Assembly (NCBI RefSeq): GCF_000013385.1
Contig: NC_007760.1
Coordinates: 186,001 to 250,000, forward strand
Origin: Anaeromyxobacter dehalogenans 2CP-C
Lineage (GTDB): Bacteria; Myxococcota; Myxococcia; Myxococcales; Anaeromyxobacteraceae
DNA length: 64,000 bases
Reading direction: 5' to 3'
Position numbers and translations under genes: made by a program. Below, piece after piece: positions 34,176 to 34,783 of the stretch (position 1 is the stretch's first letter; each line of letters begins with the position of its first letter). The notes beneath the pieces are model-generated. The model worked only from the letters and a program-made list of their open reading frames with translations, searched no databases and was not told the DNA's origin.

Positions 34176-34388
34176 TCAGGCGGCGTCGCGCCGGGGCGCG
34201 GCCCGGGCGCGCGCGCACGCCGGCGCGGTCGCGGCGCCGCCCGCGTGCACCTTCGCCAGGGCGGCCACGCAGCAGCGGCAGGCGGTGCCGGCGCCGGTCT
34301 CGGCGATCACCTGGCGGAGCGAGGCGCCCTCGGCCGCGCGCCGGCGCACCAGCGAGTCGGACACGTTGAAGCAGAGACAGACGATCAC
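34176..34388 (-). CDS. bfd: Bacterioferritin-associated ferredoxin ([2Fe-2S] BFD-like)
   Basis: The 70-residue protein begins IVCLCFNVSD and has the BFD [2Fe-2S] pattern CxC at the start and CxxC in GTACRCCVAAL about 30 residues later. In other bacteria Bfd donates electrons to bacterioferritin heme to release stored iron. The GTG start at 34388 overlaps the stop of the upstream Fur-domain gene (GTGA), matching the family N-terminus; an ATG four codons earlier is possible. The C-terminal 20 residues are a basic Ala-rich tail absent from most homologues. Confidence 0.88.
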   Translation of the reverse strand: MIVCLCFNVSDSLVRRRAAEGASLRQVIAETGAGTACRCCVAALAKVHAGGAATAPACARARAAPRRDAA

Positions 34389-34624
34389 GCCCGCCCCCAT
34401 CCGCGCGGCAGCGGAGCCGCCGCGCCGGCGCGGCACGCGGCGCAGCAGCCGAACAGCCGCAGCCGCGGGGCGCGCACCTCGAAGCCGTTCCGCGACGCGG
34501 CGGAGGCGGCGAGCGCGCCGAGGTCGGGGTCGATGGCCACCACCGCGCCGCAGCGCGTGCAGACGAGCGCGCAGGCCGGCTCGGCGGTGGCGGAGGAGGG
34601 GACGGGATCGCGGGGAGGGTGCAC
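34385..34624 (-). CDS. Fur C-terminal-domain-only mini-protein
   Basis: The predicted 79-residue protein matches only the dimerisation/zinc half of Fur: ALVCTRCGAVVAIDPD, then helix LGALAASAASRNGFEV, strand APRLRLFG and CCAACR, which gives the two CxxC structural zinc pairs. The whole N-terminal winged-helix DNA-binding domain is absent, and the His cluster of the regulatory site is missing. I chose GTG at 34624 because GGAG sits five bases upstream and the alternative ATG at 34666 would put a Fur box inside the gene. It is coupled to bfd by a four-base overlap. It could buffer zinc or iron, or form mixed dimers with full-length Fur; this is inference. Confidence 0.6.
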   Translation of the reverse strand: MHPPRDPVPSSATAEPACALVCTRCGAVVAIDPDLGALAASAASRNGFEVRAPRLRLFGCCAACRAGAAAPLPRGWGRA

Positions 34625-34644
34625 CGGGGCTCCGGAGATGATGT

Positions 34645-34659
34645 TGAGAATGACTCTCA
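34645..34659. promoter_or_regulatory. Fur box (7-1-7 inverted repeat)
   Basis: TGAGAAT-G-ACTCTCA is a 7-1-7 inverted repeat with a single mismatch, the classical shape of a Fur operator. It lies 21-35 nt upstream of the mini-Fur GTG start and just downstream of a possible -10 (GATAGT on the minus strand). Bound Fur would therefore cover the transcription start of the iron cassette. Confidence 0.65.
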
Positions 34660-34683
34660 CTATCATGGGCGCGGCCGGCCGTC

Positions 34684-34697
34684 ATGACGCCCGTCAA
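34684..34697. promoter_or_regulatory. FNR/DNR-like site upstream of the iron cassette
   Basis: On the minus strand the sequence reads TTGAC-GGGC-GTCAT, nine of ten bases of a TTGAC-N4-GTCAA palindrome. Its centre lies about 66 nt upstream of the mini-Fur start codon and about 38-40 nt from the likely transcription start. Confidence 0.5.
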
Positions 34698-34783
34698 GCG
34701 GGGGGCGGAATGCAGGCGGCCGGGCGGGGAGGCGCCCGGCCCGGCGGGGCGCCGGCGCATTGCGGGCAGGGGGCAGGACGGTC

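Follow-up and report, generated by a model that had tools for sequence, protein, structure and literature searches.

A predicted free-standing Fur dimerisation domain overlapping bfd in Anaeromyxobacter, a candidate antagonist of Fur

Some DNA-binding regulators have relatives that retain only the dimerisation part, such as the truncated H-NS proteins of the H-NST type and the Id proteins. In Staphylococcus aureus, the small protein Fpa (YlaN) binds Fur, weakens its attachment to DNA and relieves its repression under iron limitation (PMC11559061). Site S1 of Fur, built from two CX2C motifs, is reported to be important for dimerisation (PMC11353095); Bfd is believed to favour the reductive mobilisation of iron from bacterioferritin, and in E. 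coli Fur represses feo while FNR activates it (both PMC7762939). Here we describe a locus of Anaeromyxobacter dehalogenans 2CP-C, found in a stretch of 64,000 nucleotides (NC_007760.1, positions 186,001 to 250,000; the window), where the gene for a 79-residue protein resembling the C-terminal half of Fur overlaps the gene for the bacterioferritin-associated ferredoxin Bfd. We designated this protein mini-Fur. No natural Fur without a DNA-binding domain was found in the literature searched, which consisted of open-licence papers and gives weak evidence of absence.

Mini-Fur is predicted to be the C-terminal dimerisation fold of Fur without the winged helix. An earlier note, made from the letters of this DNA, had claimed a protein of this kind, and profile comparisons bear it out. 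The window protein matched positions 71-127 of the 130 positions of the NCBIfam PerR profile (E = 5.6e-5) and residues 83-131 of Mycobacterium tuberculosis FurB (PDB 2o03; E = 2.2e-4), and its single-sequence matches, weak and consistent, always fell in the C-terminal half of Fur-type proteins. It was left unmatched by Pfam FUR, for which three of its relatives scored 13.7-16.1 bits, below the gathering cut-off of 23.1. Furthermore, hhalign of six mini-Furs against seven full-length Furs gave 98.8% (E = 1.4e-16, 55 columns), with an alignment confined to the C-terminal half of Fur and beginning right at the HHDH motif. Both CxxC pairs, i.e. structural site S1, are invariant in all six mini-Furs, and so are, at 39% identity, the glycines and the LVCTRCG core; the N-terminal tail is proline-rich and variable. 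Three mini-Furs retain the histidine preceding the last strand, and the window clade has lost it. As the HHDH metal ligands are absent from all of them, the iron-sensing sites are probably gone.

AlphaFold with Fur rows in the alignment predicted the order strand-strand-helix-strand-helix (beta-beta-alpha-beta-alpha), with a core predicted local distance difference test score (pLDDT; means of 10 residues) of 82-93. Because Fur rows were present in this alignment, the prediction was rerun with mini-Fur rows only, which gave the same secondary structure with a core pLDDT of 67-84. For both models, the 50 listed Foldseek matches were without exception chains of the Fur family (Fur, Zur, PerR), the best E values being 1.7e-3 and 2.6e-3 for the two models and none of the matches listed falling below 1e-3; VIA gave Z up to 4.6. 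The earlier note had also raised the possibility of an upstream winged helix split off by a sequencing error. tblastn with seven Fur N-terminal halves, which matched the full-length Fur loci L001 and L002 used as controls, gave zero matches at the six mini-Fur loci; mini-Fur is thus not a split Fur, as no locus has a DNA-binding half.

Mini-Fur is present in six of nine Anaeromyxobacter genomes, i.e. the window genome (G000), G031, strain PSR-1 (G036), A. terrae SG22 (G038), A. soli SG29 (G034) and G035. G037 is too incomplete for judging its presence, and in G032 and G033 no short frame of this type was found, all matches there sitting in frames of at least 190 residues. The total absence from relatives that the earlier note had considered was therefore not observed, homologues existing in five other genomes. 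The window protein is 94-97% identical to the mini-Furs of the G031/G036 group and 39-41% identical to those of the group of A. terrae, A. soli and G035; the GTG start lies at the matching position in all six genomes. This identical position supports the 79-residue frame, and an alternative ATG start at 34666, which would yield 93 residues, is disfavoured because the Fur box described below would fall within the coding frame. Among 195 Myxococcota genomes, a profile scan returned convincing short-frame matches in Anaeromyxobacter alone; one 60-residue frame, in G148, is situated at a contig end. A single-sequence scan of genome contigs with mini-Fur gave zero homologues. Two Chloroflexota matches from the profile scan were rejected, both being full-length Fur, and a plasmid search returned two weak matches, of which the first carries the annotation of a Fur family regulator and the second has no listed gene.

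This distribution bears on the suspicion that mini-Fur is a spurious open reading frame or a full-length Fur split by sequencing. Such an artefact is hardly credible: all that speaks for it is that very GC-rich DNA tends to have open frames, whereas six separately sequenced genomes, two genomic settings and the hhalign profile match speak against a chance frame, and the lack of a DNA-binding half nearby speaks against a split. Both versions are refuted by the homologues, and sequence comparison confirms mini-Fur as a genuine gene. Its copies in G000 and G031 are set apart by 14 synonymous changes against 5 nonsynonymous ones (ratio of nonsynonymous to synonymous rates, dN/dS, 0.13); about 30% of changes are expected to be synonymous without selection, and the binomial chance of these counts is near 1e-4. 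This one informative pair shows purifying selection on mini-Fur. The pair A. terrae and A. soli is uninformative in this respect, as dN/dS is 0.85 for mini-Fur and 1.00 for the undoubted bfd. We consider it very improbable that mini-Fur is a decaying, functionless remnant of a Fur gene. Its truncation relative to Fur, the rapid divergence between clades and the terrae-soli ratio would agree with decay, but the genuine bfd beside it has an equally high ratio, and the purifying selection in G000-G031, the similar length and identical start in six genomes, the conserved promoter sites and the lack of a winged-helix remnant upstream in any locus all contradict it.

In all six loci, the stop of mini-Fur and the start of bfd share the letters ATGA or GTGA, and the GTGA overlap that the earlier note had read in the window is exact. 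The trio of mini-Fur, bfd and bfr proposed in the same note is present in the window; as a general arrangement it did not stand, since bfr adjoins the pair only in the genomes of the A. dehalogenans type (G000, G031, G036) and has another location in A. terrae, A. soli and G035. What is conserved is the pair of mini-Fur and bfd, without bfr. The pair is found in two genomic settings; in A. terrae it is flanked by histidine-kinase-like and helicase-like frames (translations read by eye). A. terrae, A. soli and G035 each possess a second, ordinary bfd besides the one linked to mini-Fur. The ordinary bfd genes L036 (G035), L039 (G038) and L063 (G034) differ from most other members of the family in having no Fur box within up to 220 nucleotides upstream and in encoding products with a long C-terminal tail. 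In a Bfd tree, the Bfds linked to mini-Fur are not resolved as a single clade; in a tree of Fur C-terminal domains, the free topology needs two changes, and a single origin of mini-Fur has p = 0.58 in the approximately unbiased test. Neither a single origin of the cassette nor two is favoured by these trees, and a single origin is neither shown nor rejected.

The overlap also agrees with a role without a partner, in which mini-Fur homodimers would bind zinc or iron and have nothing to do with DNA, or the frame would serve mainly as a translated leader coupling the expression of bfd. The small size and the variable, proline-rich tail point the same way. We nevertheless regard this as improbable, because the cysteines, glycines and LVCTRCG core that stay invariant at 39% identity suggest that the protein itself is functional, and the loss of the HHDH ligands counts against it as well.

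The promoter region of mini-Fur contains conserved Fur-type and FNR-type sites, to which binding of the corresponding factors is predicted. The near-perfect Fur box of the earlier note was recovered: it has one mismatch to TGAGAATNATTCTCA and is the sole match to this motif with up to two mismatches in 64 kb, where 0 are expected. Its core is common to the aligned upstream regions of all six mini-Fur genes. In fact, a scan of the 5.01-Mb chromosome found just three Fur boxes within one mismatch of TGANAATNATTNTCA, and these three best sites precede a feoB-containing region, mini-Fur-bfd and fur-feoB. The FNR-like palindrome fared less evenly. It has three mismatches to TTGATNNNNATCAA, a threshold at which 48 matches occur in the window, and is hence insignificant in the window sequence alone; it is conserved in register in the relatives, reading TTGATGGGCGTCAT in G031 and G036, TTGATCCAGGTCAT in A. 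terrae, TTGATCCGGATCAC in A. soli and CTGATCTGGATCAA in G035, the last two with one mismatch each to TTGATNNNNATCAA. The site is credible because its position is constant across three lineages, with a gap of 24-25 nucleotides to the Fur box and centres about 38.5-39.5 nucleotides apart (38.5 in the window). Where promoters of ordinary bfd genes in the family have a Fur box, no FNR-type site is present at the corresponding position. Activation by FNR usually takes place from a position near -40. It is plausible that the Fur box lies over the transcription start, and in that case the activator would be located near -40. Consensus scans for a sigma-70 promoter and terminator scans found none at the locus.

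On the minus strand of the window, the order is FNR-like palindrome, Fur box, GTG, mini-Fur, bfd and bfr, with 125 nucleotides between bfd and bfr.

Features of the mini-Fur-bfd region (positions in the window)
Feature	Position	Strand	Remarks
mini-Fur, 79 amino acids, predicted Fur dimerisation-domain protein	34385..34624	(-)	GTG start 34624, TGA stop 34385-34387
bfd, 70-amino-acid BFD-type [2Fe-2S] ferredoxin, GTG start	34176..34388	(-)	Pfam Fer2_BFD 37.4 bits (cut-off 26 bits)
bfr, bacterioferritin, 158 amino acids	33574..34050	(-)	Pfam Ferritin E = 1.7e-38
Putative Fur box TGAGAGTCATTCTCA (minus-strand letters)	34645..34659	(-)	core TGAGAnTnnnTCTCA in 6/6 loci
Putative FNR/CRP-type site TTGACGGGCGTCAT (minus-strand letters)	34684..34697	(-)	in-register conservation in relatives
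Possible ribosome-binding site, ~CCGGAGC, before GTG 34624	34628..34634	(-)	suggested by sequence inspection

Full-length Fur proteins, potential partners of mini-Fur, are encoded in the genome. One full-length fur (L001, G000:C1:1792554 onwards) stands directly before a second feoB-like frame and has its own Fur box at 1792432. A perfect FNR box and a perfect Fur box occur 35 nucleotides apart at G000:C1:3766890-3766953 (L083, 2391-2454), preceding an outer-membrane-like and a FeoB-like frame, which makes this region a strong candidate for a dual-control ferrous-uptake promoter. Only two perfect FNR boxes exist in the genome, one being that of L083; the other perfect TTGATNNNNATCAA site lies at G000:C1:165400-165413, about 20 kb before the window. 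As for the activator, L080 (G000:C1:1541184-1541381) encodes a Crp/Fnr-family protein with clustered N-terminal cysteines (DCGSCSLGIASQGRC) and a recognition helix PETLSR (E-xx-SR), which we take to resemble that of FNR. It is possibly the iron-sulfur FNR of Anaeromyxobacter; the name is a guess, since among NCBIfam families it matches FtrB best, and this at a score far below the cut-off.

We tentatively favour the view, to which we give a little less than an even chance, that mini-Fur is a native Fur-antagonist microprotein made at low iron, probably when oxygen is absent. At low iron, Fur would leave the mini-Fur-bfd operator and an FNR-type activator would turn the operon on, probably under anaerobiosis; coupled translation would then yield mini-Fur and Bfd together. 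Subunits of mini-Fur and full-length Fur would pair, as the earlier note had suggested, into heterodimers that have only one DNA-binding domain and presumably bind Fur boxes poorly. Since the mini-Fur promoter is itself predicted to be Fur-repressed, such antagonism would constitute positive feedback, by which ferrous uptake (feo) would be derepressed more sharply; Bfd would meanwhile release iron from bacterioferritin. That the free-standing domain, under control of FNR and Fur, poisons Fur by heterodimerisation and works as a positive-feedback switch tying reductive iron release from Bfr to globally derepressed ferrous uptake is possible, though we would not bet on it. The antagonist is supported by the conservation of the bfd overlap and the promoter in six genomes at 39-97% identity, by the purifying selection between G000 and G031 together with the potential full-length Fur partners encoded, and by the location of the chromosome's three best Fur boxes at feoB, fur-feoB and mini-Fur-bfd. 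The reported importance of S1 for dimerisation and the precedent of Fpa also count for it.

Several points weigh against an action on Fur. The pairing of mini-Fur with Fur is a prediction from domain content; mini-Furs stand on long branches in the Fur C-domain tree and are strongly diverged from Fur, so that the two proteins may no longer fit each other at the dimer interface. G032 and G033 possess bfd and bfr and do without mini-Fur. The constant neighbour of mini-Fur is Bfd and not Fur, which fits a Bfd-related role equally.

Such a role is the main rival to the Fur antagonist, although we think it rather unlikely. Mini-Fur would here be a metal or [2Fe-2S] cluster protein acting with Bfd (or with Bfr-Bfd) and never on Fur-DNA regulation, its four-cysteine domain having been recruited as a cluster or zinc carrier, or as an assembly or stability partner of the ferredoxin. 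Indeed, the stop/start overlap with bfd holds in six of six loci and in two settings, the sole constant neighbour is a [2Fe-2S] ferredoxin, and the CxxC pairs are invariant; every genome with mini-Fur has the coupled bfd, and the complete members without it, G032 and G033, have no such bfd. Against this, the metal in four-cysteine Fur domains is usually structural zinc, bfd stands by itself in other members of the family, and we know of no Bfd that requires a partner like mini-Fur. Constructs of the C-terminal domain of E. coli and Haemophilus influenzae Fur bind [2Fe-2S] according to reports cited in PMC11353095, and cysteines for [2Fe-2S] binding in this domain are described in PMC10318462.

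An action on Fur would make mini-Fur a built-in dominant-negative version of a bacterial regulator that is very widespread, with feedback in its own promoter; if it binds [2Fe-2S] beside Bfd, it would bear on the debate over iron sensing by Fur via such a cluster. In both cases, mini-Fur offers a small protein of natural origin on which the questions of antagonism and of the cluster can be tested.

Compared with the described systems, mini-Fur shares the beta-beta-alpha-beta-alpha fold and the two CxxC pairs with the C-terminal domain of the Fur family (Fur, Zur, PerR), but lacks the winged helix and the HHDH ligands and has 73-79 residues instead of about 140-170. The locus retains the Bfd-Bfr iron-release module, with bfd and its Fur box beside bfr as in other family members; ordinary bfd genes, unlike the linked one, have neither mini-Fur ahead nor an FNR site. 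The promoter grammar of FNR and Fur known from E. coli feo is matched by the two sites at feoB of this genome and may also apply to the mini-Fur-bfd operon, the gap between the two sites being 24-25 nucleotides at the latter versus 35 at feoB. Fpa parallels mini-Fur in proposed function only: PMC11559061 does not describe it as a Fur domain, and it binds Fe(II) via oxygen and nitrogen ligands, whereas mini-Fur corresponds to half of Fur and keeps its cysteines. H-NST-type and Id proteins are like mini-Fur in architecture and belong to unrelated protein families. By its domain content and the sites in its promoter, mini-Fur is plausible as a natural off-switch for Fur.
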